Assembly: GCF_014203795.1 (NCBI RefSeq)
Contig: NZ_JACHJU010000001.1
Coordinates: 2,170,001 to 2,234,000, forward strand
Source of the DNA: Streptosporangium album
Lineage (GTDB): Bacteria > Actinomycetota > Actinomycetes > Streptosporangiales > Streptosporangiaceae
DNA: 64,000 bases
Direction of reading: 5' to 3'
The position numbers were made by a program, and so were the translations under genes. Shown here one piece after another: positions 14,079-42,124 of the stretch; the first letter of the stretch is position 1, and each line of letters opens with the position of its first letter. A model generated the notes under the pieces. That model saw only the letters and a program-made list of their open reading frames with translations, was not told where the DNA came from and made no database searches.

Positions 14079-14118
14079 GATTACTGTGGGGTAAGCGAGC
14101 AGGCGAGAGGGGTGTGCC

Positions 14119-23660: not shown

Positions 23661-23694
23661 CCGGTCATCCAACCCTTCACGCCCCGGCCAGCGG

Positions 23695-24620: not shown

Positions 24621-25505
24621 TCATGGCACTGGCGTCCAGAGCCATGGGCGCGACCCGCGCTCGCCGCGCAGGCACGCCAACCGCAGCACGATCTCGTCAT
24701 GCCGCGCAGGGTTCTCCGCGGCCACCTGCGCGGCCATGCACGTCATCCGGAACTCACGGATGTCCCGCAGGACCTCGAACCCCGCCCACGCCGTCACGTC
24801 GTGCCCGTACGCCCGCACGAACACCTCGTAGTCCGCAGCTGTGATGCCGGCCAGCGTGAACGCCTTCACCGCGGTGGAGGTCAGGTCCCATTCGGGCGGC
24901 CCGACCGAGCAGCGCTCAAGGTCGAGCAGCACCACGTCGTCGTCAGTGCTGACGACGTTGCCAACCCAGGCGTCGCCGTGCACGACGCACTCGGGCAACC
25001 CTGCGGGCAGCTCGGCGTACCGGGCTTCCAGCTCGCCCAGGTGCCGGCGCATCCAACGCCGGTCGGCCTCGGGAAGCATGGCGCGCTCGATGCGGTCGGA
25101 CAGGCGCACGAACGGGTCAAGACGGCCAACAGCGAACAACGGCGGCGGCAGGTCATGCAGGCGGCGCAACGCGGTAGCCACCTGCAACGCCGTCCCGTTC
25201 TTGTGCGGAGGCAACTCCCGCCACCAGGTGACCGCGCGGCCGTCTACCTCCACGGGCTGGTCGACGTCGGGCCACACCTGCACGGCGGACACGTCGCTCG
25301 TTTCCAGCCACCTGGCCACGGCTACCTCGCGCGCCGCCGCAACGATCTGACCAGGCCGAGTGACGCGGGCGATGATCCCGCCGCGGAGTCGGAACAGGGC
25401 ATTCTCGCCGAGCCGGATCAGCTCGGCCTCGTCCGGGTCGAGCCCCGCCCGGAGGCTGGCCACCCCGAGCACCACCCGGGCGGCCGCCTCCGCGTTGCTG
25501 GTCAT
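24621..25505 (-). CDS. Aminoglycoside/choline-kinase-fold phosphotransferase (APH family)
   Basis: 294 residues. The catalytic loop is CVVHGDAWVGNVV (Asp and Asn of the Brenner motif) and the metal-binding segment is VVLLDLERCSVGPPEWDL. The N-lobe has GENALFRLRGG and IIARVTRP. APH-fold enzymes phosphorylate hydroxyls of small molecules with ATP or GTP. Its start overlaps the stop of the XRE regulator (ATGA). At the edge of a presumed nucleoside cluster it could be a self-resistance kinase, a pathway enzyme or a signalling kinase; no choice can be made from sequence. Confidence 0.85.
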   Translation of the reverse strand: MTSNAEAAARVVLGVASLRAGLDPDEAELIRLGENALFRLRGGIIARVTRPGQIVAAAREVAVARWLETSDVSAVQVWPDVDQPVEVDGRAVTWWRELPPHKNGTALQVATALRRLHDLPPPLFAVGRLDPFVRLSDRIERAMLPEADRRWMRRHLGELEARYAELPAGLPECVVHGDAWVGNVVSTDDDVVLLDLERCSVGPPEWDLTSTAVKAFTLAGITAADYEVFVRAYGHDVTAWAGFEVLRDIREFRMTCMAAQVAAENPARHDEIVLRLACLRGERGSRPWLWTPVP

Positions 25506-26866
25506 GCCTGGATCGCCTCGCGGATGCGATGCCGCAACTCGGCCACCGGCGTCCGCCGCTCGTAAGGGCGGGCGAACCGAGCGAGCTCGCGCATGTCATC
25601 CTGGGCGCGGCGTGAACGGACCGTGCCCGCGTCTGTGACCGCGCGTGCGCTGATCTGGACGGCCTCCTCGGGGTCACCGGCCGCCATCGTCAGGGAGGCG
25701 AGCTTGATGCCGCTGATCGCCCGGGACCGGACGTACGCGGCGGTATGCCCGGCCACCGCGCCAGCAAGCCTGCTGGACGCCTCTCCGACGTACGTGGCGT
25801 TGACCGGGTTGGGGATGACCTGCCCGTCGACCATCCTGCTCACGGCGCCGAGGTCGAGCGCCAAGTCGAACAGCGCATGCCCGGTGTCACCCTGATGTTG
25901 GGCTGCGTCGTAGTACCGCATCCACGGCATTTCCTCGGTGGCGTGGATGCGGTTGAACTCCCGGTCGGCGTCATTGACGGCCTGCCAGGTCTCCGCTACT
26001 CGGCCGAGCTTGGCGAACGCCCGCGCCTGGGCCGACCGCAGCATGGCGCGCTCGGCCGGGGTGAGCCGGTCGGACCGCACGAGAGCGAGTTCCACCAGTG
26101 TGAGCCCATTGTCGGCGTCCCCGACCCAGATGGCTTGCCGCGCCATGCTGGACAGCACCTTGGCCCGAAGATGCCAGTCCTTCGCCTCCTCCGCGCAGGC
26201 GAGGGCGAGCCCGAACATCCGGCGAGCGTCGTCGTGGGCGTAGGCGTCGAACGCCATGAACGCGGCCGCATGGGCGAGCCATCCGACTGCGGAGTACAGG
26301 GGGTCGTGCAGCTTGAACGAACAGCGGGACTCCTTCAGGAGCCCTACCGCGAAGCGGAGTTGCGCGGTGACCGCCTCACGGACCAGGCCGCCGCCGTAGG
26401 TGTGATCCCAGGTGGTGAAGGTCTGGGCGATGCTGCGTAGCTCGACGATGTCGGACGGTTGGACGACGGCGGGCAGACTGATGACCTGGCTCGGCATGGC
26501 CAGCTCGGCAATGGGGAGTGCGACCGCAACCCCCATTGCAGTGCGAATGAACTGCTGGCGGTCCACATCTGTAACAGTAGCTGGCGGCTTGCCCCGTTGC
26601 GGGCGGGCAAATCCCAGGTCCCGATCCTCATCTACCCCGCATATGGCACGCAGCGCTGCCCGGTAGGCGGCGTTGGGCCAGCGCACGATCCCGCGCTCCA
26701 GCTTGCCGACGTAGTTGGCCGTCCACGTCCCCACCCGGTTCTTCTCATCTAGCATCCAGGCGTTGACCAGGTCTGCAAGGTCCTGCCGCGACGCGGGTTC
26801 CCCCGGCGCTGACGGTGACGGCACGCGTTCACGCGCCTGCTGCAAGAGCACGTTAAGTTCCGCCAC
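25502..26866 (-). CDS. XRE-type regulator with long helical repeat domain
   Basis: 454 residues from GTG 26866, selected because AGGAGGTG stands four bases upstream. A divergent XRE-like HTH occupies about 20-75 (SRQDLADLVNAWMLDEKN and NYVGKLERGIVRWPNAAYRAAL). The remaining ~350 residues form TPR-like helical repeats, for example ARRMFGLALACAEEAKDWHL and LTPAERAMLRSAQARAFAKL. This HTH-TPR architecture is common among actinobacterial pathway regulators. It is divergent from the long operon starting at 27028 and is its most likely controller. Confidence 0.85.
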   Translation of the reverse strand: MAELNVLLQQARERVPSPSAPGEPASRQDLADLVNAWMLDEKNRVGTWTANYVGKLERGIVRWPNAAYRAALRAICGVDEDRDLGFARPQRGKPPATVTDVDRQQFIRTAMGVAVALPIAELAMPSQVISLPAVVQPSDIVELRSIAQTFTTWDHTYGGGLVREAVTAQLRFAVGLLKESRCSFKLHDPLYSAVGWLAHAAAFMAFDAYAHDDARRMFGLALACAEEAKDWHLRAKVLSSMARQAIWVGDADNGLTLVELALVRSDRLTPAERAMLRSAQARAFAKLGRVAETWQAVNDADREFNRIHATEEMPWMRYYDAAQHQGDTGHALFDLALDLGAVSRMVDGQVIPNPVNATYVGEASSRLAGAVAGHTAAYVRSRAISGIKLASLTMAAGDPEEAVQISARAVTDAGTVRSRRAQDDMRELARFARPYERRTPVAELRHRIREAIQA

Positions 26867-27027
26867 AGCACACCTCCTCGCGGGCATCGTCGCACGGCGA
26901 GGCATCCGGGGGCCCGCGAATCTGCCCTCAATCTGCCCCTTGACCGCCCTACTCGATGGCGTTCCCAAGCGCTCGCCATGACTCCAAGGTGAAGGGGACC
27001 CCTCACGGCACGTAAGGACGGCGCCAG
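26867..27027. promoter_or_regulatory. Divergent promoter region between XRE and the deazapurine operon
   Basis: 160 bp shared by both transcription units. TTGACC at about 26938 resembles a -35 box reading rightwards, and ATGGCG/CGCCAT inverted arms lie near 26956-26982. These are candidate elements only. Confidence 0.4.
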
Positions 27028-27363
27028 ATGCACGCACTCGACGCGGAACCCCATCAGCTCCGTGCTTGCCCGGCCAGACCGCCGGGCCCGTCGACCTGGC
27101 TCACCCTCCTGGTGTCGCTCGACAGGGGCGCGACGTGGGCGACCGCGGGCACGCTGAAGGTGCCCACCGGCCGGCACGACATGGCCGCGCGGCTTTTCCT
27201 TATGACGGCCATGAGCGCGGTGGCCGAGGGGCACGTCGCGAACACCGTGTGGAAGGCGCTCGCTTGGCCCGCCTGTGAGGGGGAGGAGCTCCCCCCACCA
27301 CGTCGGCGGTCGTGTCGCTCCGCAGCGACGGCGAGCCGAATGCTGGAGGCTAAGGATGACTGA
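27028..27363 (+). CDS. Hypothetical protein, first gene of the island operon (111 aa)
   Basis: The ATG follows AAGGA by about eight bases. The middle of the protein reads WLTLLVSLDRGATWATAGTL and HDMAARLFLMTAMSAVAEGH, which suggests a small alpha/beta fold; the C-terminus is basic. No family is recognised. It overlaps the next gene by eight bases. Confidence 0.5.
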   Translation: MHALDAEPHQLRACPARPPGPSTWLTLLVSLDRGATWATAGTLKVPTGRHDMAARLFLMTAMSAVAEGHVANTVWKALAWPACEGEELPPPRRRSCRSAATASRMLEAKDD

Positions 27364-27754
27364 CTCCACCCTGGCGACTGTCTGCTCTCCCGCTGTGGCG
27401 CACAAACCCCTACAGCGTTCGGAACGGATCTTGATGGGCACCGTTGACCTGCCTCCCGCTGTCCAGATGGCGTTGAGCCTCGCCACGGCGCTGGGCCGTG
27501 GCCACGGCATCATCGTTGATGTGCAGCCGTTCCTCTTGCAGGGGGAGACACTGATCTCCGTATGGATCGGGCTGGTCGTCCGCACGGACGGGCGCCGGTA
27601 CCGGTGGGTTGTCCCCGGCTCACAAGCGACACGTGGCCGGCCATTGTGGACATGGGCCAAGAAGCCAGGACGCGCCGCCACTCGGCTGGCCGCCGAGTAC
27701 GAGCAGCTCCGTACCCAACCTGTGGCGGCCACCGTCCTCGGGGCCCGCTGCTGA
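27356..27754 (+). CDS. Hypothetical protein (132 aa)
   Basis: Starts at ATG 27356 inside the end of the preceding gene. A segment LPPAVQMALSLATALGRGHG is followed by strands (IIVDVQPFLLQGETLISVWI, then RYRWVVPG), giving a plausible small domain, and a helical C-terminus (ATRLAAEYEQLR). The function is unknown; the tight overlap makes it a member of the island operon. Confidence 0.55.
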   Translation: MTDSTLATVCSPAVAHKPLQRSERILMGTVDLPPAVQMALSLATALGRGHGIIVDVQPFLLQGETLISVWIGLVVRTDGRRYRWVVPGSQATRGRPLWTWAKKPGRAATRLAAEYEQLRTQPVAATVLGARC

Positions 27755-27979
27755 CCGACGACCTACTCGTCTCGGTTGCCCAGGGGAATCGTGCGGGTGC
27801 AGGCCCCCAGTACCTCCCCGTCTGACAGACCTGTGGCAGGCCCTTCGCCCTTACCCCGGGCCCCGCTCGATACCCAGCCTGCGGGGCCACCAAGGGTCTG
27901 CCACTCCGAGCGGCCCCGGGACGCGTCAGGAGGAACACCTCCCGGGGCCGCACCCCACCAACATGGAAGGAGCCCGGTC

Positions 27980-28312
27980 GTGATCCCCTATCCCGGCACA
28001 CCGGCAGCTAATCGATTGAACGCGATCACGTCTCGGCAGGTCGCGGTCGTTGCGCTCCACCGCCTACAGGAGCTGCTGCACCGCCATGGCGTCTACACCG
28101 CAGTCGCCTACGACGATGAGCAGCCGCAACTGCGCGCCAAGAGCGATCTCACCGTGTGGGGCGACCCGGAGGGGCTGACGTTCTTTTGGTCCACCGGCCC
28201 GGAGCACGGGCGCGCTGAGCGCGGGCCGGTCGCCGAGCTGGAGAACGTCGCGCAGCGCATCGCCTCCCAGGTCGCCGAACCAGTAGAGACGCCAGCGACG
28301 GCGGCGCTGTGA
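27980..28312 (+). CDS. Hypothetical protein, paralogue A of a small family (110 aa)
   Basis: Starts at GTG 27980 after GGAAGGAG. It contains a beta segment DLTVWGDPEGLTFFWSTGP followed by a C-terminal helix ELENVAQRIASQV. The gene at 28409 has the same plan (ALTVWANHIGTVIYWGADP, then LTKAAQKIAEQV), so the two are diverged paralogues. The small alpha/beta form resembles accessory proteins of unknown role in actinobacterial islands. Confidence 0.55.
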   Translation: MIPYPGTPAANRLNAITSRQVAVVALHRLQELLHRHGVYTAVAYDDEQPQLRAKSDLTVWGDPEGLTFFWSTGPEHGRAERGPVAELENVAQRIASQVAEPVETPATAAL

Positions 28313-28408
28313 GACCGGTGCGGCGGCCTGCTGGAGCCGGCCGGCGGGTGGGTACCCACGGGTCGCCGCGCCGCTCCACCCCCTCGGCCCCTTCCCGAAG
28401 GAGACAAC

Positions 28409-28726
28409 GTGAGTCCGTCCTACATCACGCCGGCAGGTGACCGGTTGATCGAGGCCACCAGGCGACCCGCTTCCGGTGTCGTCATCCAGCGCCTGCGCAC
28501 CGATCTCAACAAGAGAGAGATCTACCCGTCCATCGTCTACGAGAAGGGATCGCCTCGCCTGGTGATCAGCGGTGCCCTGACCGTATGGGCCAACCACATC
28601 GGCACCGTCATCTATTGGGGTGCCGACCCCGACAAGAAGCCCGCCGGCCAGGCGCCAGGCAGCGACCTGACCAAGGCCGCGCAGAAGATCGCCGAGCAGG
28701 TCTACACGAACCGGGCGACCTTATGA
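28409..28726 (+). CDS. Hypothetical protein, paralogue B of a small family (105 aa)
   Basis: Starts at GTG 28409 with AAGGAGA upstream. The N-terminus ITPAGDRLIEATRRPASG, the central strand ALTVWANHIGTVIYWGAD and the C-terminal helix match paralogue A at 27980 in order and spacing. Function unknown. Confidence 0.55.
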   Translation: MSPSYITPAGDRLIEATRRPASGVVIQRLRTDLNKREIYPSIVYEKGSPRLVISGALTVWANHIGTVIYWGADPDKKPAGQAPGSDLTKAAQKIAEQVYTNRATL

Positions 28727-28729
28727 ACC

Positions 28730-28814
28730 CGCGACGGCACGGTGATCACTCTCCTGTGCTGTCGCGGCCCCGACTCCCGCGAGCGGTGGCGTGTACCAAA
28801 AGGCCGCTCGCGGG
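28730..28814 (+). promoter_or_regulatory. Two tandem hairpins in the 230-bp leader before the QueD-like gene
   Basis: Hairpin 1 (28730-28766): arms CGCGACGGCAC and GTGCTGTCGCG, one G-T pair. Hairpin 2 (28776-28814): perfect arms CCCGCGAGCGG and CCGCTCGCGGG with a 17-nt loop. They lie between the small-protein genes and the biosynthetic genes, where they may terminate, attenuate or stabilise mRNA. No known riboswitch consensus, including preQ1, was recognised. Confidence 0.6.
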
Positions 28815-28955
28815 GCAGACGTGACCGCACGGCACCTCGCGCCGTCGTAAGCCAACCCCCGCTTGTCGCAGTGATACTCCGCTTTGGCTCATCATCCGGG
28901 TCGGACACCACACCCTCCGGGATCGCCGTAGCAGACCGATAAGGAGGCAACGGCA

Positions 28956-29471
28956 GTGCCAGAAAACGACGCTGACCAGCAGGGCTGGTCGGCCCCCACC
29001 CTCACGCCGCAGCGGAAAGAAGAGCCAGCGGTGAGCGGACATCAGACCCCTGCAGGGGCACCGCACGGCAGCGACGGTCTGAACGGCTTCCACGTCGAGA
29101 TCAGCAAGCACTTCGCCTTCGAGGCCGCCCACCGTCTCGGCGGCCTGCCCGAAGGGCATCAGTGCGGCCGCCACCACGGGCACAGCTACCGCGTTGAGGT
29201 ACGGCTGACCGCAGACGAGTTGTCCGGCCCGGGATTCATCACCGACTTCGGTGAGCTGGAGCCGTTCGCCGCCTACATCAAGCAGAGTTTCGACCACCGC
29301 GACCTCAACGAGGTGCTGAACGTCGAACCGACCTCTGAACTGCTGGCGGTGCACCTGGCGCGATGGTTCATCGAGCACGTGGAACCGGCCATCCCCGGCC
29401 GACTGGTCGCGGTCGTCGTCAGCGAGACCGCGAAAACCTCCGCCACCTGCACAGTGAGCGAGCGAAAATGA
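28956..29471 (+). CDS. QueD-like 6-carboxytetrahydropterin synthase
   Basis: 171 residues from GTG 28956, AAGGAGG upstream. After a ~45-residue variable N-terminus, the PTPS/QueD fold shows FAFEAAHRL (first zinc His), GHQCGRHHGHSY (catalytic Cys and two zinc His), FITDFGEL, and DHRDLNEVLNVEPTSE with the catalytic His and conserved Glu. QueD converts dihydroneopterin triphosphate to 6-carboxytetrahydropterin, the second step to 7-deazaguanine. It overlaps the QueE-like gene as ATGA and lies upstream of FolE, giving the first three steps in one operon. Confidence 0.9.
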   Translation: MPENDADQQGWSAPTLTPQRKEEPAVSGHQTPAGAPHGSDGLNGFHVEISKHFAFEAAHRLGGLPEGHQCGRHHGHSYRVEVRLTADELSGPGFITDFGELEPFAAYIKQSFDHRDLNEVLNVEPTSELLAVHLARWFIEHVEPAIPGRLVAVVVSETAKTSATCTVSERK

Positions 29472-30193
29472 CCGGCCTCCTGACGGTCCAGGATGCGGCC
29501 GGCGAGCAGTTTCTCCTGGTGGCCGAGTGCTTCGGACCCACCCTGCAGGGTGAGGGGCCCAGCAGCGGCTGGCCCGCCAAGTTCGTGCGCCTGTCGCGGT
29601 GCAATCTGTCCTGCACGTTTTGCGACACCCCGTTCACGTGGGACACCTCCCGATTCGATCTGCGGCAACAGACCACGCGCATGTCGGTCGCGGACGTTCT
29701 GGCCTGGGCGCTGAGCAGCCCGGTCGACCTCATCGTCATCACCGGCGGGGAACCGCTGCTGCAGCAACTTCCGCTGGTCACATTGGTGAATGCCTTGCTG
29801 CGGGCAGGGCGGCGGGTGGAGATCGAGACCAACGGCACCGTGCTACCTCATCCTGACCTGCTGGTCGACGGGGTGTGGTTCAACGTCTCACCCAAACTCG
29901 CCAACGCGCACCTGCCCCAGCACAAACGCATCATCGGCGACACGCTGGCCGCGCTGGCCACCAGCGGCCACGCGTTGTTTAAGTTCGTCGCCTGCGACCT
30001 GGCCGACCTGCAGGAGATCAGCCAACTGCAGGAACGCTTCGCTCTGCCGGACGTGTGGGTGATGCCGGAAGGCACCACACCGGAGCAGGTCATCACGCGG
30101 GCACGGCTGCTGGTCGATGCGGTGATCGCGCGCGGCTGGTCGCTGTCGCTGCGGACGCACGTCCTGCTGTGGGGCGACGAACGTGGCCGCTGA
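29468..30193 (+). CDS. QueE-like 7-carboxy-7-deazaguanine synthase (radical SAM)
   Basis: 241 residues. The cluster motif is RCNLSCTFCDTPFTWDT (Cys-X3-Cys-X2-Cys), preceded by ECFGPTLQGEGP, which is typical of QueE. SAM-binding segments VITGGEPLLQQ and EIETNGTV follow, and NVSPKLANA is a family hallmark. It rearranges 6-carboxytetrahydropterin to 7-carboxy-7-deazaguanine (CDG). No QueC gene follows, so CDG rather than preQ0 is the expected end point of this segment. Confidence 0.92.
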   Translation: MTGLLTVQDAAGEQFLLVAECFGPTLQGEGPSSGWPAKFVRLSRCNLSCTFCDTPFTWDTSRFDLRQQTTRMSVADVLAWALSSPVDLIVITGGEPLLQQLPLVTLVNALLRAGRRVEIETNGTVLPHPDLLVDGVWFNVSPKLANAHLPQHKRIIGDTLAALATSGHALFKFVACDLADLQEISQLQERFALPDVWVMPEGTTPEQVITRARLLVDAVIARGWSLSLRTHVLLWGDERGR

Positions 30194-30245
30194 CGAGCCA
30201 CCGCTCCGTGCCTCCTGGCCCAGCCCCTGGAAGCGAGGAAGAAAC

Positions 30246-30899
30246 ATGACCACGAACGCCGTGCGGTTCCCTGATACGGCGCATCCCGGCCGAGCCGTTT
30301 CACAGCCGACCGATGACGTACCGGGCTCAACGGTAGACGCGCCCCGCGTGACCGAGCTCGTCCGCGAACTGCTCATCGCTCTCGGAGAGGACCCCCACCG
30401 CGAGGGGCTGCTCAACACGCCGGCCCGCGTCGCGGCCTGGTGGCGCGACTTCCTGTCGCCGGACCCCTCGGCGATGGCGACGTGCTTCACCGAAACCCAC
30501 GCCAGTGACCAGTTGGTCGTGGTCGGGGGGCTGAACGTGTGGTCCCTATGCGAGCACCACATGCTGCCCATGAAGCTGGACGCGCACGTCGGCTACCTAG
30601 CCGACGGCACCGTCCTGGGGCTGTCGAAGTTCGGCCGGATCGCGCAGCGCCACGCCGGGCGCCTCCAGGTGCAGGAGCGCTTCACCCGCCAGCTCGCCGA
30701 CGAGGTAGTCGCAGCCATCGGCAGCGAGGACGTGGCCGTCACGGTGCACGGCGTGCACCTGTGCATGAGCATGCGCGGCGTCCGGATGGAGGCGGCCCGC
30801 ACTTCCACCGTCCAGGCCGGCGGCCGGTTCAAGACTGATCCGCTGCTCTCCCAGCAGTTCCTCACCCTCACCACCGCCGGCCAGCGGGGGACCGCGTGA
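30246..30899 (+). CDS. folE: GTP cyclohydrolase I
   Basis: 217 residues. Conserved blocks are REGLLNTPARVA, SLCEHHMLPM (zinc Cys and His), GLSKFGRIAQRHAGRLQVQER and LCMSMRGV (second zinc Cys), so this is a type I zinc enzyme. A ~35-residue N-terminal extension is variable. It opens GTP to 7,8-dihydroneopterin triphosphate, the entry to both folate and deazaguanine; as a dedicated copy inside the operon it must serve the QueD and QueE homologues. GAAGCGAGGAAGAAAC lies before the ATG. Confidence 0.93.
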   Translation: MTTNAVRFPDTAHPGRAVSQPTDDVPGSTVDAPRVTELVRELLIALGEDPHREGLLNTPARVAAWWRDFLSPDPSAMATCFTETHASDQLVVVGGLNVWSLCEHHMLPMKLDAHVGYLADGTVLGLSKFGRIAQRHAGRLQVQERFTRQLADEVVAAIGSEDVAVTVHGVHLCMSMRGVRMEAARTSTVQAGGRFKTDPLLSQQFLTLTTAGQRGTA

Positions 30900-31414
30900 T
30901 GGCGACTGGTAGCGACGGGCGGGGGGTCACGCACCTGACGTGGCCTCGAATGGAAGAGCTGGTCAGCCGGATCGCCGAGACGATCAGGGATGACGGTGCT
31001 CCCCAGACTCTGGTAGCGGTCCTGCGCGGTGGTGGCATTCCGGCCGTCTGGCTCTCTCACAAACTCCAGCTGCGGGATGTCCGGGGGGTCGAGGTAACCC
31101 ACACCGCGGACGACAGCACCAACGCCGCGAAGACTCCGCATCCAGTGGCCGTGAACCCGGCCTCGCTGGGCGACCTCACCGGCCGGGACGTCCTGATCGT
31201 GGACGACGTCGCTGGCACCGGGCACACCCTCGCCGCCGCGGCGCGACTGGCCGCCGATGCGGGAGCCGGTCGGGTTCGGACCGCGGTGTGCGTGGTGAAC
31301 GAGGACAACCGGACCGGCCGCCTCCCGGCTGAGGCTGCCGTCACCTACATCGGCACGATCACCCACGGGTGGGTGGTCTTCCCCTGGGAGGGCAACGATG
31401 AGCACGAGCACTGA
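30896..31414 (+). CDS. Phosphoribosyltransferase
   Basis: 172 residues. The type I PRTase fold shows TLVAVLRGGGIPAVWLSH near the N-terminus and the PRPP loop VLIVDDVAGTGHT (acidic pair and Thr), with an AVCVVNED strand after it. The fold is that of xanthine/hypoxanthine PRTases rather than nicotinate ones. The start overlaps the FolE stop (GTGATG). In this context it probably attaches ribose 5-phosphate to the deazapurine base, as the PRTases of toyocamycin and tubercidin pathways do, an inference from context. Confidence 0.85.
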   Translation: MMATGSDGRGVTHLTWPRMEELVSRIAETIRDDGAPQTLVAVLRGGGIPAVWLSHKLQLRDVRGVEVTHTADDSTNAAKTPHPVAVNPASLGDLTGRDVLIVDDVAGTGHTLAAAARLAADAGAGRVRTAVCVVNEDNRTGRLPAEAAVTYIGTITHGWVVFPWEGNDEHEH

Positions 31415-32225
31415 TCAGCTTCCCGAGCAGTTCCGCACCCGGTCCGGGACCCCCATGATGGGGCCCTACAGCACCAACCAGATGGATGACTTCTACGCGG
31501 CGCTGCACCGCGGGGAGGCTAAGGCATCGGGGCTGATGAACCTGATGCAGCACCTCATCGTCGCCGAGCGGTGCGCGCCGGGCGCGAAGGTGCTGGACGT
31601 GTGCTGCGGCCGCGGGCTGGCGCTGCCGCTGCTGCGCCGGTACACGCCGGAGATCGAACGGTACGTCGGGCTGGACATCAGCCCCGGCAACCTGAACGAG
31701 GCCCGAGAACGGATCGCGTTCTTGCGAGAGACCTACGGAGGGCTCTTTTCGGTCGAGCTCGTCGAGTGCGATGTGGCCCAGCCCTGGCCGCAACTGCCCG
31801 CCTTCGACGTGGCGCTGTACACCTCGGCGCTGGAGCACCTGCCCTTCGAACTCGGTGCGCGCAGCCTGCGCAGCGCAGCGCAGGCGCTCGCGCCCGGCGG
31901 GGTGCTGTTCCTGTCCACGCCGGCGGCGGTCGGCCCGCCACCGCGGCCTCTGCAGTACCGCGTCCACGTCTACGAGTGGTCGCGGAAGGAGGTGGAGCAG
32001 GTCGTCGGCGAGGCGGGCCTGGTCGTCGAGGACGTGATGGGCCTGCTGCCGCCCGAACCGGACGTGGTGGCCGACGAGCTCACCGAACGGTACGGGCAGG
32101 GTGCGGCCGACTGGTACCGCGACCTTGCCGCGCGCGTCCCCCGGGCACTGCTGGACACGGTCTCGGCGGTGTCGGTGCCGAAGAGGGCGACCGAGCTGCT
32201 GTACGTCTGCCGGAGGCCCGCATGA
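31398..32225 (+). CDS. SAM-dependent methyltransferase
   Basis: 275 residues of the class I Rossmann type. Motif I is VLDVCCGRGLALPLL, the post-I acidic residue is in YVGLDISPGNLNEA, and motif IV is FDVALYTSALEHLPFE. The frame overlaps both neighbours (17 bases with the PRTase, ATGA with the kinase). The N-terminal ~45 residues include PYSTNQMDDFYAALHRGEAK, possibly a substrate lid. The acceptor (base, sugar or carboxylate) cannot be told. Confidence 0.85.
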   Translation: MSTSTDQLPEQFRTRSGTPMMGPYSTNQMDDFYAALHRGEAKASGLMNLMQHLIVAERCAPGAKVLDVCCGRGLALPLLRRYTPEIERYVGLDISPGNLNEARERIAFLRETYGGLFSVELVECDVAQPWPQLPAFDVALYTSALEHLPFELGARSLRSAAQALAPGGVLFLSTPAAVGPPPRPLQYRVHVYEWSRKEVEQVVGEAGLVVEDVMGLLPPEPDVVADELTERYGQGAADWYRDLAARVPRALLDTVSAVSVPKRATELLYVCRRPA

Positions 32226-32938
32226 GTGCCGCCGCTGTCCCTGCGCCGCGCCGTGAGCCCGCCCCTGCCCGGCCGCTGTGGGTGAGCGTCGAGGGCATCA
32301 ACGGCGTCGGGAAAACCACCGCGGCCCGAGCGCTCGCCGCCTGTCTCGGTGAGCGGTGCCTGCTGCTGGACGAACTCACCGACCGGGGTGGAGACACGCT
32401 GCCCGGACGCGTGATCTCCGCGCTGGCCGCGGAGGACGACGTGTTTCTGCGCACCGGATATCCGGTCGTGGAGACGTTGGCCCTGCTGGCGCTGAAGGTC
32501 CGCGAAGTCGAACGCCTCGCCGTCCTTCCGACCGCGCCGGAGGTGGTGATCGAGGACCGCGGCGTCGACTCCGTGGCCGTCTATCAGGCCGCGATCCTCT
32601 CCGCGCAGGTGCCAGGAGCCGATCCCGCGGACGTCGCACGGCACGTGCTCTCGACCGTGTCGCGGTGGCGGCTCCTGCCCGACGCCACCGTCTTGCTGAC
32701 CGACAACCGGGAGGTGTGTACGCGGCGCTTCGCCGACCGGATCGGACGGACGCTGGCGCTACGGGACCTGCGCGTGATCGAGCAGGCCGACATCCTCTAC
32801 ACCGGGCTGGCCGCCGCCGAGCCCGACCGCTACACCGTGATCGATACCACCGGGCGGCCCGCCGAGGCCGTCGCCGATGAAGTGGGCGCGCTCGTGCAGG
32901 ACCTCGTGAAGCAGCGGGAGGCTGACCATGCCGCGTGA
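32222..32938 (+). CDS. Thymidylate-kinase-like P-loop kinase A
   Basis: 238 residues. The P-loop is VEGINGVGKTTAARAL, close to dTMP kinases (EGIDGAGKTT). IEDRGVDSVAVYQ holds the DR(X) motif that binds the monophosphate, and VLLTDNREVCTRRFADR resembles the lid with its Arg residues. A second paralogue lies at 35160. As one dTMP kinase is enough for a cell, these two are more likely to phosphorylate pathway nucleotides or nucleosides. It overlaps both neighbours by a few bases. Confidence 0.8.
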   Translation: MSAAAVPAPRREPAPARPLWVSVEGINGVGKTTAARALAACLGERCLLLDELTDRGGDTLPGRVISALAAEDDVFLRTGYPVVETLALLALKVREVERLAVLPTAPEVVIEDRGVDSVAVYQAAILSAQVPGADPADVARHVLSTVSRWRLLPDATVLLTDNREVCTRRFADRIGRTLALRDLRVIEQADILYTGLAAAEPDRYTVIDTTGRPAEAVADEVGALVQDLVKQREADHAA

Positions 32939-33965
32939 TGCCACCCTGCTCTGGGCCCTGCGCTCGCCCTGCGCGTTCGCCTGCCCCCACTGTTACTTCG
33001 GCACGATCGAGGAGCACAAACCGGCCCCGCCCAACGAGGTCGGCGTCTTGTCGCACCTGTCCCGCAACGACCTGCCGCCCCGGGCGCTCAAAGCGTTCGC
33101 CCGGACCCTGGCCGGTTCGCCGATCGAGCGGGTGGTCATCGTCGGCGGCGAACCGCTGGACTGGCCCCCCACGCTGGAGGTGATCGAACTCATCAAGGAG
33201 GCAGACTGTCAGGTCGTGATCGCCACCAACGGGATCCCGCTCACTCGCCCGCCGGTGGCCAGGCGGCTCATCGCGCTCGGCGTCGACGGCGTTTCGGTCT
33301 CCCTGGACAGCGCGGACGCGCAGACCAACGACCGGCTGCGCCCCTCCCGTTCTGGGCGCTTCGGCTACGACGATGTCCTGGCCGGTATCCGCGCCCTGTT
33401 GGAGGTCCGGGGCGACCGGCACACGCCGCGGGTGGGGATCTACACCGTGGTGATGCGCCAACGCCCGCAGGAGATCACCGACATGGCCCATCTGGCCGAC
33501 GAGCTCGGCGTGGACTACTACGTCCCCCAGCCGATCTCGCTGACGCCCGACCACAAGCTCTTCAAGGAGCTGACCCACCGCCGCGAAGACGTGCAGGCCG
33601 TGGCCGAACAGCTCGACCGTCTCTACGACGAGCCGGGCAGGCTGGCGCTTCCGGACCCCTCCTACGCACGGCGCTTCATCGCCGCGATCTCTACCCAGGA
33701 GAGCGGGCACGTCCCCGACTGCTTCGGCGGCGCCCGCCTGTTCTTCATCCAGCCTGACGGCTCGGTCTGGGACTGCCCGTCCGACCGCCGGATCGCCGCC
33801 ACCGCGCCCGAGCGGCAGCGCACCATCCGAGACGGCGACGCGCGCACGCTCTTCGCCACGAGGCCCGCGTGCACGGACTGCTCGCTGTTCAGCCGAGACT
33901 GCGTGAACATGTGGCCGCTCGTGCTGGACATGCCGCGGCTGCTGAACCCGGGGGCTTCCCGATGA
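32928..33965 (+). CDS. Radical SAM/SPASM-domain enzyme
   Basis: 345 residues. The SAM cluster motif is PCAFACPHCYFG (Cys-X3-Cys-X2-Cys) at about 14-21; VIVGGEPLDWPP and VVIATNGIPL are SAM-binding strands, and VDGVSVSLDSADAQTND completes the barrel. A C-terminal SPASM-like region holds six Cys (DCFGG, WDCPS, ACTDCSLFSRDCVNMWP) for one or two auxiliary clusters. SPASM enzymes modify peptides, sugars or aminoglycosides. Here the aminotransferase next door suggests oxidation or C-C chemistry on a sugar or base. Confidence 0.88.
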   Translation: MPRDATLLWALRSPCAFACPHCYFGTIEEHKPAPPNEVGVLSHLSRNDLPPRALKAFARTLAGSPIERVVIVGGEPLDWPPTLEVIELIKEADCQVVIATNGIPLTRPPVARRLIALGVDGVSVSLDSADAQTNDRLRPSRSGRFGYDDVLAGIRALLEVRGDRHTPRVGIYTVVMRQRPQEITDMAHLADELGVDYYVPQPISLTPDHKLFKELTHRREDVQAVAEQLDRLYDEPGRLALPDPSYARRFIAAISTQESGHVPDCFGGARLFFIQPDGSVWDCPSDRRIAATAPERQRTIRDGDARTLFATRPACTDCSLFSRDCVNMWPLVLDMPRLLNPGASR

Positions 33966-35071
33966 CGCTCCCTCACGTCCCCGGCGGCGCGCAGCCGATC
34001 ACGGAACAGCTCGCCGCCGTGATCGAGCAGATGCCCGACCCGAGCGGCGGTCCGGTCGCCGGACAACTGGAGCGCGACCTGGCCGAGACGTTCGGCGTCC
34101 CGCACGCCGTCGCGGTCGCCTCCGGCACCGCGGCCCTGCACACCGCGCTGTCGGCCTGCGGCATCGGCCCCGGCAACGAAGTCCTCGTGCCGGCGCTGAC
34201 CGTCGTCATGACCGTGGCGCCCCTGGTCGCCCTCGGGGCAACACCGGTATTCGTCGACAGCGACCCGGCCACCTTGGACCTGGACTACGACGACGCGGCC
34301 CGCAAGGTCACCTCGCGGACCCGGGCGATCATCCCGGTGCACCTGTGGGGCCGGATGGGAGACCCGGCAGCCCTGGCGGCGTTCGCATCCGAGCACGGGC
34401 TCGCCGTCGTCGAGGACGCCGCGCAGGCCGCCGGCACCGCGCGCGACGGGCAGCGGGCCGGCACGGTCGGCACGGTCGGCTGCTTCAGCATGAAGGACGG
34501 CAAGATCCTGTGGAGCGGTGAGGGCGGCTTCCTGCTCACCGCCCGCCGCGACGTGGCAGAGCACGCGACCGCGTTCCGCAGCCACTGGCAGCCGGCGCCT
34601 CCGGGCGAGGCCCCGCTGAGCCGCCTGGCAACCAACTCCCGCCTCGCTGCCCCCCTCGCCGCGATCGCCCTGGCCAACCTCCGCCGGTTTCGGGGCCTGG
34701 TCGAACTGCGCCGCGCACAGACCCGCCACCTGCTGCACGCCCTGGAGCAGGCACCCGGCCTGGTCGCTCTCGCCCCGGCTGCCCGCGAGGAGTGGAACGG
34801 CTTCGCGGCGCTCCTTCACATCGGCCTGCCGAACCCCCGGGCGTTCGCCGAACACCTCGCGCAGCAGGGAGTGCCGAACTCCACCGGCAGCTTCCGGCTC
34901 GTCCCCTGCGACACCCGGCCCATGTTCACCGACCGCGGCCGGCCGTGCCGCGGCGCCGCCCAGATCCTCGACCACATGCTCGCCGTCATCCTCACCGAAC
35001 GCGACACCGAGACCACACTCGACCGCTACGCCGCCGTCACCGCCACAGAGGCCACCGCATGGGCCAGGTGA
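33962..35071 (+). CDS. DegT/DnrJ/EryC1-type PLP aminotransferase
   Basis: 369 residues. VASGTAALHTALSACGIGPGNEV (N-terminal fold), VVEDAAQAAGT (Asp that pairs with the PLP pyridine) and CFSMKDGKILWSGEGG (the Lys near residue 180 forming the Schiff base) are all present. Family members aminate keto-sugars or cyclitol ketones. It overlaps the radical SAM gene (ATGA), implying sequential action: the radical enzyme or another oxidase makes a ketone and this enzyme aminates it. No sugar nucleotidyltransferase or dehydratase is in the window. Confidence 0.9.
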   Translation: MTLPHVPGGAQPITEQLAAVIEQMPDPSGGPVAGQLERDLAETFGVPHAVAVASGTAALHTALSACGIGPGNEVLVPALTVVMTVAPLVALGATPVFVDSDPATLDLDYDDAARKVTSRTRAIIPVHLWGRMGDPAALAAFASEHGLAVVEDAAQAAGTARDGQRAGTVGTVGCFSMKDGKILWSGEGGFLLTARRDVAEHATAFRSHWQPAPPGEAPLSRLATNSRLAAPLAAIALANLRRFRGLVELRRAQTRHLLHALEQAPGLVALAPAAREEWNGFAALLHIGLPNPRAFAEHLAQQGVPNSTGSFRLVPCDTRPMFTDRGRPCRGAAQILDHMLAVILTERDTETTLDRYAAVTATEATAWAR

Positions 35072-35145
35072 CCGACGACCCGGAACCCGCACCGACGAAT
35101 CCCCCCGGAACGACCCTTCCGGTGGGGCCCTGTCCTCGCCCCTGA
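35059..35145 (+). CDS. Possible 28-aa peptide after the aminotransferase
   Basis: An ATG 13 bases before the end of the DegT gene opens MGQVTDDPEPAPTNPPGTTL and ends in CPRP; a GTG at 35068 overlaps the stop as GTGA and is an alternative start. The peptide is Pro-rich with one Cys. It fills almost the only gap in the operon and may be a coupled spacer peptide or a chance frame. A hairpin at 35101-35127 lies within it. Confidence 0.25.
   Translation: MGQVTDDPEPAPTNPPGTTLPVGPCPRP
35101..35127 (+). promoter_or_regulatory. Stem-loop between aminotransferase and kinase B genes
   Basis: Arms CCCCCCGGAA and TTCCGGTGGGG with a 6-nt loop and one bulge. It may act as an intra-operon attenuator or mRNA-processing site. 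Confidence 0.45.
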
Positions 35146-35159
35146 ACGGATCCTGCCGC

Positions 35160-35930
35160 ATGACGATCACACCGGTACGCCATTCCTGCACCCGCGGCCC
35201 GCTGGTCTCCGCCGAGGGCATCAACGGAGTCGGCAAGACGTATCTGACCAACCGCGCCGTCGAAGCCCTCGACGACAAGCCGCTGATGCTTGACGAGTTC
35301 TCCCAGCGGGCGAACGGGCGCCCGGGACTGGGCGAAGCCCTGCTCCGCTTTCTGCGTGAGGCCAGCGCAGGGGACCCGTTCCTGCGCGGGGGCACCCCCA
35401 TGGCCGAGGCTCTGGTCCTGCTGGCCATCAAGCGGCATGACCTGGACACCGTCATTCCCGACCTGTCCAGCGGGCGTGCCGTCGTCGAGGGCCGCAGCGT
35501 CGACACCACGGCGGTGTGCCAGGCTCTGCTGCTGCGCCCCGACGACCCGGACGCTGCCCTTGAGACGGCAACCGCCCTGCTGGAACTCGCGTCCTCCTAC
35601 CGGCCCCTCCCCGACCTCACGATCCTCGTCACCGACGACGCCTCCGAGGCCGTCGTGCGCGCGCAACGGCGCGACCGGCGCGTCTTCACGACCGAGCAGG
35701 CCACGTTCATGCGTGAGGCATGCGCGCTCTACGAGCGGCTCGCCGCCACCGATCCGGCACGCTACCGGGTCGTAGACCGGCGCAGCGTCGGCGAGCACGA
35801 GGCGGCCGAGCAGATCCGGGCGTGGATCCACGACGCCGGGACCGACCTGGGCTGCTTGCGCGAGCCGTGGCAGGGCCCGGGAGCCCGGTGCATGTGCTGC
35901 GGCCACCGCGCGGAATCGGCGCCGGCATGA
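35160..35930 (+). CDS. Thymidylate-kinase-like P-loop kinase B
   Basis: 256 residues, paralogous to kinase A at 32222: P-loop SAEGINGVGKTYLTN, a matching LMLDEFSQRANGRPG segment, VVEGRSVDTTAVCQ in place of the DR motif, and TILVTDD near the lid. The C-terminal tail carries a CMCCGHRAE cluster that could bind metal and is absent from kinase A. The GINGVGKT signature shared by the two points to gene duplication within the cluster. Substrate unknown. Confidence 0.75.
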   Translation: MTITPVRHSCTRGPLVSAEGINGVGKTYLTNRAVEALDDKPLMLDEFSQRANGRPGLGEALLRFLREASAGDPFLRGGTPMAEALVLLAIKRHDLDTVIPDLSSGRAVVEGRSVDTTAVCQALLLRPDDPDAALETATALLELASSYRPLPDLTILVTDDASEAVVRAQRRDRRVFTTEQATFMREACALYERLAATDPARYRVVDRRSVGEHEAAEQIRAWIHDAGTDLGCLREPWQGPGARCMCCGHRAESAPA

Positions 35931-36001
35931 ACGAGGCGGCCGCACCGCACGACGCTGCGCCGAACACCACGCCGCCACGATCAGCAGATTCCGCCAGATG
36001 A
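35927..36001 (+). CDS. Possible 24-aa coupled peptide after kinase B
   Basis: An ATG overlapping the stop of kinase B (ATGA) opens MNEAAAPHDAAPNTTPPRSA and four more residues. Low complexity and Pro/Ala-rich. It resembles the tiny frame at 35059 in position (coupled to the stop of an operon gene) but not in sequence. It may be only a translational bridge to the PurC-like gene. Confidence 0.2.
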   Translation: MNEAAAPHDAAPNTTPPRSADSAR

Positions 36002-36029
36002 CGGCGTGAGGCCATCACACCAAGGGAGC

Positions 36030-36998
36030 ATGATGCCCATCCTCCACTCAACCAAGAACCTAGAGATCATCGAACCTCCCACGACAACGAGGGAGGGTGT
36101 CGGAATCTTCGAATACACCGACAATTACACGGTGTTCCATTACGGCAGAATGCCGGACCAGATCCCCGGGAAAGGCGAGGCGACCTGCCGCATGGCCGTC
36201 TTCAACTTCACAATGTTGGAGGCGGCGGGCGTGCGAACCCATTTCCGCCGGTTCGTCGCCCCGAATCGGATCGAGTTCGATCTCGCGCGTGTCCCGGGCC
36301 CGGACGCCGGGCCGCTCACCCCGGACGCTGGAAACTACCTCATTCCCGTGCAGGTCCTCTTCCGCAACGAGCTCCCTCAAGGAAGCTCCGTTCACCGCCG
36401 GCTCGCAGCCGGCGCGCTGACACCGGCCGAGGTCGGGCTCCGCGGCATTCCCGCGGTCGGCGAGAAGCTGCCCCATCCGCTCATCGAGTACGCGACGACG
36501 CTGGAAGACGTCAACCGGTTCGTCGACGGGCCCGAGGCCCAGCGCCTCGCCGGTCTGAGCGACGAGCAGTTCCAGGCGATGCGCGACACCACCGTCAAGG
36601 TCAACGAGGTGCTGACCGGACACGCACGCGAGCTCGGGCTGAGCCACTGCGACGGCAAGGTCGAGTTCCTGGTGTCGAGCGATGCGCGCATCGTGCTTGC
36701 CGACAGCCCCGGCACACCGGATGAAAGCCGCCTGATGTTCAACGGAGTGCACTGCGGCAAGCAGGTCCTCCGGGACTGGTACGTGAAGAACGGCCTCGAA
36801 GTGCCAGTCAGCAGACTGATCGCCGAGGACGTGCCCAGGAGCCGGTGGCCGCAGCCGGCACCGCTCCCGCCCGCGTTCCTGCCGGTGATGTCGGACCTGT
36901 ACCGGTCCCTGAGCGAGACCTGGACGGGCGAGCGCCCCTGGAACGCGCCGGACCTGCGAGCCGCCACGCAGGCCGTTGCCCGCCTCATCAGACAATGA
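36030..36998 (+). CDS. PurC-like (SAICAR synthetase family) ligase
   Basis: 322 residues from ATG 36030, AAGGGAG upstream. Family hallmarks are FEYTDNYTVFHYGRMPDQIPGKG (N-lobe; split here at about residue 27-48), VLFRNELPQGSS, and the ATP/metal segment DGKVEFLVSSDARIVLADSP followed by GTPDESRL. PurC joins a ring carboxylate (CAIR) to the amino group of aspartate, using ATP. A second PurC is not needed for purine synthesis, so this copy probably amidates another carboxylated ring; 7-carboxy-7-deazaguanine nucleotide, made by the upstream genes, is the obvious candidate. Confidence 0.82.
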   Translation: MMPILHSTKNLEIIEPPTTTREGVGIFEYTDNYTVFHYGRMPDQIPGKGEATCRMAVFNFTMLEAAGVRTHFRRFVAPNRIEFDLARVPGPDAGPLTPDAGNYLIPVQVLFRNELPQGSSVHRRLAAGALTPAEVGLRGIPAVGEKLPHPLIEYATTLEDVNRFVDGPEAQRLAGLSDEQFQAMRDTTVKVNEVLTGHARELGLSHCDGKVEFLVSSDARIVLADSPGTPDESRLMFNGVHCGKQVLRDWYVKNGLEVPVSRLIAEDVPRSRWPQPAPLPPAFLPVMSDLYRSLSETWTGERPWNAPDLRAATQAVARLIRQ

Positions 36999-37089: not shown

Positions 37090-37752
37090 ATGGGCGGCTT
37101 GACAGCAGACCCCGCCTTCCTGGCGACGACGTTCGTAGTCATCGACTTCGAGGCGACGACCCCCACCGGCTACCCGGCCCAGCCCATCGAGGTCGCCGCT
37201 CTCGCACTCCGCTACGAGGAAGGCGCGTGGACAACGGTCGGCAGGGGCACATCTCTCATCCGGCCGCCCGCGTTCGCCCCAGTGACGCCAGCCGTTACGG
37301 CCCAAACCGGCCTGACCCCCGAGCAGGTCAAGCAGGCCCCTAGCCCGGCCGAAGCGCTGGGCGCACTGGATCGGCGCTTCACGGCCAGCAACCGGTACCT
37401 GCTGGTGGCGCAACACGCCGCCACCGAGGCCAAGCTCATCCACAACCAGCGCGAGCACTGCCCGGCGCTGGCCCGCGTTGACCTTCTTGACACGATCCCG
37501 TTTGCCAAACACCTCGTCCCGGGTCTGCCGAACTACAAACTCGACACGCTGCTGGCGCATTTCTCCATCAAGCAGCCGGCGGATCGCCACAGAGCCGCCG
37601 CCGACGTCGACGTCACCGCGCAGGTGTTCTTCCGGCTCGTCAGCGCCGCGGACGAGGATGCTCAGCTCAGCGATCTCGCGGCTCTGGTGAAAATCGCGGG
37701 GCGCACCGCCAAGTGCAACATGCCCGCCCAAGACGGATTGTTCGACATCTAG
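37090..37752 (+). CDS. DEDDh 3-5 exonuclease (DnaQ-like)
   Basis: 220 residues from ATG 37090. Exo I is VVIDFEATTPTG (Asp, Glu), Exo II lies in LLVAQHAATEAKLIHNQRE, and Exo III is HRAAADVDVTAQ (His and Asp), a complete DEDDh set. A CNMPAQDG segment near the C-terminus is unexplained. It is close behind the PurC-like gene and in the same direction. It may degrade modified or damaged nucleic acid, or be an ordinary proofreading-type nuclease that was carried along. Confidence 0.85.
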   Translation: MGGLTADPAFLATTFVVIDFEATTPTGYPAQPIEVAALALRYEEGAWTTVGRGTSLIRPPAFAPVTPAVTAQTGLTPEQVKQAPSPAEALGALDRRFTASNRYLLVAQHAATEAKLIHNQREHCPALARVDLLDTIPFAKHLVPGLPNYKLDTLLAHFSIKQPADRHRAAADVDVTAQVFFRLVSAADEDAQLSDLAALVKIAGRTAKCNMPAQDGLFDI

Positions 37753-37811: not shown

Positions 37812-38444
37812 ATGATCAAGGAAAAATCCGGCCGCGACGAGGTCCCATTCTGGTTCGATCCGCTGTGCCCCTGGGCGTGGATCACCTCGCGCTGGCTCCT
37901 GGAGGTCGAGCAGGTTCGACCGGTGCGCGCCGATTGGCGGATCATGTCACTGGCCTACCTGAACCTCGTCCAGCGCGAGGGCAAGGGACTCAGCGCCGAC
38001 TACCTGGACCTGATGGAGAAGGCATGGGGTCCAGTGCGGGTCTGCGCGGCAGCCGCTGAGCACAGTGGCCGCGGCGTCCTCGGACCGCTGTACACCGCCA
38101 TCGGCGCCCGGCTTCACAACCAAAGACGTCGCGACGATCCCACCGTCATCACCGAAGCTCTCACGGAGGCGGGCCTGCCCGATTCGCTGGCCGCAGCCGC
38201 CACGAGCACGGAGTTCGATCAGCTCATCAGAGACTCGCACGACGAGGCGTTCAACGATGTCGGCCTCGATGTCGGGACGCCCGTTCTCCGCATCGGCGGC
38301 ACGGCCCTGTTCGGCCCCGTGATCACGCCGGCCCCTCGCGGTGAAGCTGCCGGGCGACTCTGGGACGGCCTGGTCATGGTCGCCGGGACGGACGGCTTCT
38401 TCGAGCTCAAGCGGAGCCGGGACCGCAAACCGTCCTTCGACTGA
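37812..38444 (+). CDS. Mycothiol-dependent nitroreductase-type DsbA-fold protein (Rv2466c family)
   Basis: 210 residues. FWFDPLCPWAWITSRWL is the family motif, with a single active Cys (CPWAW) rather than the CPWC of Rv2466c; WRIMSLAYLN and DVGTPVLRIGG (cis-Pro loop) follow. Members use mycothiol to reduce nitro or quinone compounds or act as thiol reductases in the cytoplasm. It closes the run of + strand genes after the exonuclease; a link to the nucleoside pathway is uncertain. Confidence 0.85.
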   Translation: MIKEKSGRDEVPFWFDPLCPWAWITSRWLLEVEQVRPVRADWRIMSLAYLNLVQREGKGLSADYLDLMEKAWGPVRVCAAAAEHSGRGVLGPLYTAIGARLHNQRRRDDPTVITEALTEAGLPDSLAAAATSTEFDQLIRDSHDEAFNDVGLDVGTPVLRIGGTALFGPVITPAPRGEAAGRLWDGLVMVAGTDGFFELKRSRDRKPSFD

Positions 38445-38598: not shown

Positions 38599-39159
38599 TC
38601 AACCGATCCGGACCGGTGCGCTGACCGCTCGCGCGATGCGGTGCCCGACAAGGCGCTCGGCCGCGTCGAGCGAGTACCAGGCGGCGCCCCTCACCTCGGA
38701 CTCCTGGATGCGCCCCACGTCGGCATCCGGTGTCACGAAGGAGTACCCGATGTCGAGGTGGTAGTGATCCGGTTCGTCCTTCTCCGGCCGTGCCGGAACC
38801 CTGCCGTACTCGATGTAAACGGGGGCCTGCGACGCTGGGAAGACCTTGCCGGGATCAACCCCGGTCTCCTCCGCCAACTCGCGCACTGCCGCGTCGATCA
38901 GTGTGGTATCGGTCGGCTCAAGGTGACCTCCGGGCTGCAACGTGATCCCGTACGCGCGATGCTCGACAAGCAGGATCTCGTCGTCACCGCGGACCAGCAG
39001 CGCACCGACAGTCACGTGCATCGGAAAATTCCGCCGCGAGGCGAAATCCCCTCCCTGCGACAGCAGCTGCACCGGCTCAGCCAGCAGCGCGGCCTCGTCC
39101 GGATAGCGCTTGATGTAGGCCGAAAGCGCACCCGAGATGTCCGAGTCACTGATCGCCAC
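38599..39159 (-). CDS. NUDIX hydrolase
   Basis: 186 residues from GTG 39159 with GGGGGTG upstream; longer starts add a Cys-rich stretch without similarity. The NUDIX box is GGHLEPTDTTLIDAAVRELAEETGV, close to GX5EX7REUXEEXGU (residues about 98-122). It hydrolyses a nucleoside diphosphate linked to another moiety. Beside a cluster that makes a nucleotide analogue, sanitising the nucleotide pool is a reasonable role, but many NUDIX genes are scattered in such genomes. Confidence 0.85.
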   Translation of the reverse strand: MAISDSDISGALSAYIKRYPDEAALLAEPVQLLSQGGDFASRRNFPMHVTVGALLVRGDDEILLVEHRAYGITLQPGGHLEPTDTTLIDAAVRELAEETGVDPGKVFPASQAPVYIEYGRVPARPEKDEPDHYHLDIGYSFVTPDADVGRIQESEVRGAAWYSLDAAERLVGHRIARAVSAPVRIG

Positions 39160-39494
39160 GGGGCACCCCCACACCAGCCGGAGAGCAAAGCTCTCCGTGA
39201 CCGACTGCTCGGATGTGAGCGACGAGCACTGACACCAGCTCCTTAGAAAGCGCGTGGCGTACGAAGGGGTTCGCACCTTACAAGTTGGGCCCGACCGGTG
39301 CGCGCATGCCACGCCGAACAGACACAGCAGGTGCCCACACTCCGTTCCGCCGGGAGATGGCGCCCCAGCCTCCCAGCTGTTTCGCGTTCACGGCTCGACG
39401 GCGGCCGACTCCCATGAGGGGCTGGCAGCGTCCACGTCGTCGTACGGGTGCCACCGGAATACGGAAGAAACGGGCCGTGGGGCTGCCAGGGCAG
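39160..39494. other. Intergenic stretch upstream of the NUDIX gene
   Basis: 335 bp without a convincing gene. It contains the NUDIX promoter region near 39160-39260. Open frames reading rightwards here lack ribosome-binding sites and protein-like composition. Confidence 0.5.
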
Positions 39495-40240: not shown

Positions 40241-40261
40241 CGGGCCTGTAGGTTGCCCCCC

Positions 40262-42088: not shown

Positions 42089-42124
42089 TGATGGCGCGAG
42101 TGTGTCGAACCGGGTGGCGACGCG

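Follow-up and report, generated by a model that had tools for sequence, protein, structure and literature searches.

Few natural 7-deazapurine nucleosides have known genes, and the pathways consulted here pass either via preQ0 or via decarboxylated 7-carboxy-7-deazaguanine (CDG), the base formed by FolE, QueD and QueE in an established enzymatic route. In tubercidin synthesis, TubE is a CDG-specific phosphoribosyltransferase, and the route needs no QueC (PMC6112128; this and the other cited papers are represented by part of their text). In pyrazofurin synthesis, the PurC homologue PrfC, together with PrfB, amidates an azole ribonucleotide carboxylate (PMC8724604). The operon described here lies in a stretch of 64,000 nucleotides from Streptosporangium album (assembly GCF_014203795.1, contig NZ_JACHJU010000001.1, positions 2,170,001 to 2,234,000), called the window below. 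The same cassette, about fourteen genes shared among scattered soil actinobacteria, was found, complete or nearly so, at 30 further actinobacterial loci, four of them on plasmids. On balance, it is somewhat probable that the cassette is a mobile actinobacterial pathway to a methylated 7-deazaguanosine derivative with an amide at C7 and an amino sugar, which would be built as a nucleotide. This predicts a third branch, in which a PurC paralogue amidates the CDG nucleotide and the sugar is aminated by radical chemistry.

All coordinates refer to the window, and the genes of the operon lie on the + strand. The first three would form CDG: a QueD-like 6-carboxytetrahydropterin (CPH4) synthase (28956..29471; PF01242, 5.3e-25) with a conserved Cys and HGH motif, whose GTG start at 28956 is preceded by AAGGAGG at 28942; a QueE-type radical S-adenosylmethionine (SAM) enzyme (29468..30193; TIGR03365, 4.1e-26) with CxxxCxxC and QGEG conserved in the family alignment; and a FolE GTP cyclohydrolase I (30246..30899; PF01227, 1.3e-51). 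The trio is present by family and motif, with FolE above its subfamily cut-off (NF006826, 180.5 vs. 162) and QueD and QueE below the NCBIfam equivalog cut-offs (82.4 vs. 89.25 and 92 vs. 206). The next gene encodes a phosphoribosyltransferase (PRTase; 30896..31414; PF00156, Pribosyltran, 2.6e-20) with the conserved phosphoribosyl pyrophosphate (PRPP) motif VDDxxGxGxT. Its specificity for CDG is a prediction; like TubE, it would convert CDG and PRPP to CDG ribonucleotide. An earlier reading of the window from its letters and open frames (the sequence-only reading) had placed the branch point at CDG, followed by ribosylation, and the PRTase with its PRPP motif and the TubE precedent are consistent with this.

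The PurC (SAICAR synthetase) homologue (36006..36998; PF01259, SAICAR_synt, 1.8e-23) is the predicted amide ligase for the C7 carboxylate; position 36006 gives the longest frame, and the conserved start is closer to 36030. PurC normally activates an imidazole ribonucleotide carboxylate, to which CDG ribonucleotide, a pyrrole carboxylate, would be similar. As in PrfC, the ligase would join an amine (aspartate by analogy) to the carboxylate in an ATP-dependent step. A second, stronger PurC sits elsewhere in the genome, and the cassette protein stays below the NCBIfam equivalog cut-offs (TIGR00081, 133.3 vs. 189.9; NF010566, 181.2 vs. 546). Both proteins have the R...GS and DxKxE motifs in common, but the acidic DE pair reads DS in the cassette protein, which may mean that an amine other than aspartate is used. 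If aspartate is coupled, housekeeping PurB could convert the product to a carboxamide. No lyase of PrfB type was seen in the cassette; PurB might serve instead, much as housekeeping enzymes have been proposed for the missing purine steps of tubercidin (PMC6112128). Ribosylation probably precedes C7 processing, because related PRTases serve clusters with PurC, with a QueC-like protein or with neither.

The sugar would be modified by two adjacent enzymes, a radical SAM enzyme (rSAM; 32928..33965; Radical_SAM, 1e-19), which would oxidize one hydroxyl of the ribose to the ketone, and a DegT-family pyridoxal-phosphate aminotransferase (33962..35071; PF01041, 3.3e-71), which would convert the ketone to an amine. 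The rSAM gene precedes DegT at all 31 loci and in every uninterrupted sister locus read. Its seven cysteines are invariant in 31 aligned rows and kept in nine proteins compared across cluster types; four of them are predicted to bind one auxiliary cluster (twitch type), as in BtrN, which dehydrogenates an aminocyclitol by radical chemistry. The best structural match of the rSAM model is BlsE, at ~19-21% sequence identity and with the BlsE family cut-off missed (TIGR04466, 27.4 vs. 400 bits), and BtrN is not among the 50 fold matches listed. Confidence in the model is low at residues 13-29, the site of the cluster loop. In DegT, the KDGK segment is conserved and the solved relatives include sugar aminotransferases; the frame used for its Pfam scan began at 33956, two residues before the ATG.

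A class I methyltransferase (31398..32225; PF13489, 4.8e-14) would cap the product. Each of the 31 loci has one of two forms, never both and never neither: form A, that of the window, between the PRTase gene and the first kinase gene (21/31), or form B, behind the DsbA or NUDIX gene (10/31). The best match between them is 33% over 64 residues (6.6e-4), and the swap requires at least four changes on the rSAM tree. As two dissimilar methyltransferases swap repeatedly, methylation is probably a required step. Phosphates would be added and removed during assembly by two thymidylate-kinase-like P-loop kinases, TMK1 (32222..32938; PF02223, Thymidylate_kin, 5.8e-12) and TMK2 (35160..35930; PF02223, 5.8e-10), a HAD phosphatase and a convergent NUDIX hydrolase (38599..39312, - strand, longest frame; PF00293, 8e-16). 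Both kinases score below the thymidylate (dTMP) kinase equivalog cut-off (TIGR00041, 37.2 and 32.5 vs. 83.25). In the window, the HAD gene is cut down to its first codons (35927..35941), which equal those of locus L003, with divergence thereafter. Since most cassette scores fall below equivalog cut-offs, the proteins are divergent paralogues.

The operon continues with a DEDDh-type 3'-5' exonuclease (37090..37752, start set by conservation; PF00929, 4.5e-18), which may free the 3' ends of nucleic acids from the nucleotide and in this way protect the producer, and an Rv2466c/DsbA-like mycothiol-dependent oxidoreductase (37812..38444; PF22234, 6.2e-83). DEDDh, NUDIX, P-loop and SAICAR are used here as motif names. 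It is from families, motifs and conservation that we infer every substrate, the order of the reactions and what the exonuclease does. Neighbouring genes between QueD and PurC overlap by 4-17 nt; FolE, TMK2 and PurC alone are set off from the gene before them, by 52, 88 and 75 nt, and the exonuclease and DsbA-like genes are preceded by gaps of 91 and 59 nt, respectively. The sequence-only reading had placed the operon at 27028..36998; in fact, it begins at 28956 and extends through the exonuclease and DsbA-like genes to 38444, so that these two and the convergent NUDIX gene, all conserved, were missing from the list. The gene families that had been named are all borne out by Pfam and NCBIfam scans, and all genes are open frames.

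The 31 loci, collected via the rSAM or the PurC gene, are the window, 4 plasmids and 26 genome loci. The search with the PurC homologue led to Streptosporangium, Micromonospora and Streptomyces plasmids bearing the same operon. A genome collection described as covering 84,980 species was scanned with the rSAM alignment and gave the 26 loci, all from actinomycetes, going by record titles: Nonomuraea, Kibdelosporangium, Nocardiopsis, Frankia, Kineosporia, Nocardia, Microlunatus, Streptomyces, Actinomadura, Amycolatopsis, Streptacidiphilus, Kitasatospora, Actinocrinis and one Streptomycetaceae metagenome-assembled genome. In profile searches, with one family counted per open reading frame (ORF), PRTase, TMK1, TMK2, DegT, the exonuclease and, by construction, rSAM were found at 31 of the 31 loci, QueE at 30, QueD, HAD and NUDIX at 29, PurC at 28 and FolE and DsbA at 27; three loci (L009, L014 and L021) are interrupted by contig ends. 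The HAD count includes the window remnant and omits L021, and tblastn finds this phosphatase at 29/31 loci, the window and L004 being those without it. The DsbA match in L016 is short, one of the two loci lacking NUDIX (L009) ends there with its contig, and no FolE was present in the counted stretch of 4 loci. Gene order is near-constant. A fifth plasmid with this type of cluster (type I, L072) was read outside the 31 loci. The gene set noticed earlier is thus real and larger than noted; what had been taken for an accessory island is no private one but a recurrent cassette, and the proposed comparison of gene order met the same operon on plasmids and chromosomes.

Two observations concern other replicons. 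The 1.7-Mb plasmid NZ_CP109408.1 of Kitasatospora sp. NBC_01519 has three rSAM places and three PurC places, which suggests several clusters of the cassette family. In Mesorhizobium and Aminobacter plasmids (L007 and L008, ~14001-14978), a 44% PurC relative lies beside purH, phosphoribosylanthranilate isomerase and a beta-RFAP-synthase-like gene, possibly another nucleoside pathway.

The source genome (9.0 Mb, 14 contigs, 99.98% complete) gave no match to QueC and none to tRNA-guanine transglycosylase (TGT, PF01702), hence no TGT-like DpdA, which extends to the whole genome the absence of both reported earlier for the island; the controls of the TGT and QueC searches were positive in 14 and 12 of 14, respectively. 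Among the 26 carrier genomes, TGT is present in 2 and a strong full-length QueC (E<1e-50) in 2 others. QueC matches over the cut-off occur in 14 carriers; the other 12 are partial or weak and are tentatively read as asparagine-synthetase-like, the one of G028 being ambiguous (1e-9, positions 81-206).

All genes tested are under purifying selection: in comparisons with three relatives (two in the case of NUDIX), Ka/Ks lies at 0.17-0.57 for 13 genes, HAD being left out. Given these values and the recurrence at 30 other loci, the gene set is not a product of chance. At silent sites, QueD and QueE have diverged much further than the other cassette genes; the cassettes are therefore mosaics. In the mosaic L021, the PRTase, methyltransferase and TMK2 are 89-91% like those of the window, and rSAM, DegT and TMK1 merely 62-73%.

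The distribution of the cassette is sporadic. A close rSAM gene (E<=1e-190) is present in 2/16 genomes of the genus and 11/341 of the family; counting related cluster types and one interrupted copy as well raises the latter to 16/341 genomes, in 6/68 genera. In Streptomyces, 8/392 genomes have an rSAM match, seven of them close; these eight include five known carriers (G029, G032, G033, G034 and G037), one of which was the search centre. The only match in a phylum sample of 396 genomes is the window's own genome. The plasmid copy of S. alboflavus is nested in a clade that is otherwise Streptosporangiaceae (support 100/99), and so the cassette has probably, in part, been transferred horizontally between families. 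The sporadic distribution, the plasmid copies and the swapped tailoring enzymes favour a specialised nucleoside over other product classes.

Related clusters share a QueD-QueE-PRTase-TMK-rSAM-DegT core and carry a QueC-like protein with a nonribosomal peptide synthetase (NRPS), or WbqC/PPDK, in place of PurC. Type II, on Streptomyces linear plasmids, consists of QueD, QueE, FolE, NRPS, PRTase, a QueC-like protein (PF06508, 4e-15, over part of the profile), two TMK-like proteins, an APH-type kinase, rSAM, DegT, HAD and a methyltransferase similar to neither form A nor form B. No PurC was found in this cluster with the QueC-like protein. Identities to the cassette are 62% for PRTase (vs. L031), 50% for rSAM, 51% for DegT and 49% for HAD. 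Three of five plasmids were covered, one (L069/L073) protein by protein and L070 and L071 via annotation tables, in one of which the PRTase is not listed. In genome G912 (L105), a type II-like rSAM gene broken by a stop codon adjoins an APH-type kinase gene. Type III comprises QueD, QueE, PRTase, a WbqC-like protein, TMK, rSAM, DegT and the exonuclease, plus a PPDK-like protein or TMK2, with FolE in 4/5 loci (L084 and L100-L103, the last interrupted by a contig end). A minimal type (L083 and L034) is without PurC, DsbA and NUDIX. With at least three sister types around the same core, one characterised member would annotate a family across many actinobacterial genera and plasmids.

The exonuclease, of which a relative is present in all cluster types, is central to the foremost rival explanation, in itself rather unlikely: the product would be an intracellular chain terminator, a 3'-sugar-modified 7-deazaguanine nucleoside triphosphate poisoning the polymerase of a phage or competitor, with the exonuclease as the host's antidote (compare viperin and its partner kinase). 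Consistent with this are the exonuclease, present at 31/31 loci as well as in the type III and minimal clusters, the two TMP-kinase-like enzymes, the plasmid copies, a core without a constant exporter and a weak match to pVip (prokaryotic viperin; 7e-16). However, rSAM misses the viperin cut-off (NF038283, 45.3 vs. 180 bits) and viperin is not the top fold match of its model; NUDIX and HAD would strip phosphates; and there is no match in a phage collection and one weak match in viral contigs. In the sole type II cluster examined, moreover, the exonuclease relative lacks the His/Asp motif, which weighs against the antidote and against a uniform self-protection role. As a tentative idea, unlikely though not quite so much, the whole family could be mobile actinobacterial systems for amino-sugar 7-deazaguanine nucleotide chain terminators, in most cases paired with a 3'-5' exonuclease of their own that would remove the terminator from the producer's DNA or RNA, and with the C7 group varied via PurC (amide), QueC-like protein plus NRPS, or WbqC/PPDK. 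Self-protection by a partner exonuclease, found in all 31 cassettes, would be unusual in kind if confirmed.

It is improbable that the product is a secreted nucleoside ending as a free CDG-type acid, with amidation as a side branch. In its favour, PurC is absent from 3/31 loci and from the minimal form L083, and CDG ribosylation is known from TubE. Against it, PurC is kept at 28/31 loci, with Ka/Ks of 0.25-0.33 against three relatives, and rSAM (by construction), DegT and a methyltransferase are present at all 31. PrfC/PrfB show that a PurC homologue can amidate the carboxylate of an azole ribonucleotide, so the earlier proposal of a base that remains a free acid, like cadeguomycin, is probably wrong.

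A signalling nucleotide, or a cofactor, that the producer both makes and uses internally has about the same low probability. No transporter is constant, and several copies have a large divergent gene immediately upstream of QueD, which one type II cluster carries with the annotation of an XRE regulator. In the window, this possible regulator (25502..27037, - strand) has no Pfam match and its membership in the cassette is uncertain; relatives of 24-43% identity lie near 8/30 other cassettes, and a 46% identical one adjoins the minimal cluster L083. Nevertheless, the sporadic occurrence (1/396 in the phylum sample, 16/341 in the family with related types) and the swapped tailoring genes are more in keeping with a specialised metabolite. 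Finally, a DNA or tRNA modification system inserting a deazaguanine base is very improbable: QueD, QueE and FolE are common to dpd islands and queuosine synthesis (PMC11888242), but neither the window's genome nor 24/26 carriers have a Pfam match to TGT, and a PRTase with kinases makes nucleotides rather than exchanging bases.

Between the putative regulator and QueD lie two small ORFs (27776-28312 and 28409-28726) with translations that resemble each other on visual inspection; the second has no Pfam match. Downstream of NUDIX, a dCTP deaminase-like gene (39974-40837; PF22769, 5.5e-45) had no tblastn relative in the cassette loci covered by that search. A palindromic element of ~137 bp, at 23683-23835 and 41941-42093 (copies 95% identical), flanks the 18-kb stretch bearing the operon; it has 60 genome matches, many partial, and resembles a miniature mobile element. 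Adjoining the right-hand repeat, 41466-41897 (- strand) reads as the C-terminal part of a tyrosine recombinase, apparently without the N-terminal part, and outside the island an ORF at 44070-45311 (- strand) reads like an intact transposase, both from translation alone.

No description of a cluster with this gene set or product was found in open-access full texts (subscription journals being mostly outside them), in line with the earlier statement that the combination matches no named pathway. Its logic resembles that of puromycin, in which a nucleotide sugar is oxidised, aminated and then treated by a NUDIX enzyme and a phosphatase (Pur10/Pur4/Pur7/Pur3), although with another dehydrogenase class, an adenine base and no deazaguanine. 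BlsE and BtrN, like the proposed cassette rSAM, are radical SAM enzymes that modify the sugar or the cyclitol ring of an antibiotic; BlsE differs in being a decarboxylase, acting on the sugar of a cytosine nucleoside, cytosylglucuronic acid (PMC3715490). Pyrazofurin (PrfC/PrfB) and pentostatin (PenC) likewise have a SAICAR-synthetase homologue in a nucleoside pathway (PMC8724604, PMC12648386), but with C-nucleoside or coformycin-type chemistry and no deazaguanine. Toyocamycin/sangivamycin and huimycin share the CDG trio with the cassette, and huimycin also a methyltransferase (PMC7439116). These pathways proceed to preQ0 by QueC (ToyM/HuiB; PMC6112128, PMC7439116), whereas the cassette genome has no QueC match; huimycin has a glycosyltransferase, and the terms 'aminotransferase' and 'radical SAM' are absent from the part of its text consulted (PMC7439116). 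Tubercidin had wrongly been assigned to preQ0-type chemistry in the sequence-only reading, as TubE ribosylates CDG (PMC6112128). Its gene table, as far as consulted, lists a UbiD decarboxylase, a GMP reductase, a carbohydrate kinase and a major facilitator superfamily transporter, unlike the cassette, and has no PurC, second radical SAM enzyme, DegT or methyltransferase, all cassette features (PMC6112128). Yet, tubercidin (tubA-I) shares with the cassette FolE, QueD and QueE without QueC, a NUDIX enzyme and a PRTase, which is CDG-specific in tubercidin and predicted to be so in the cassette (PMC6112128).

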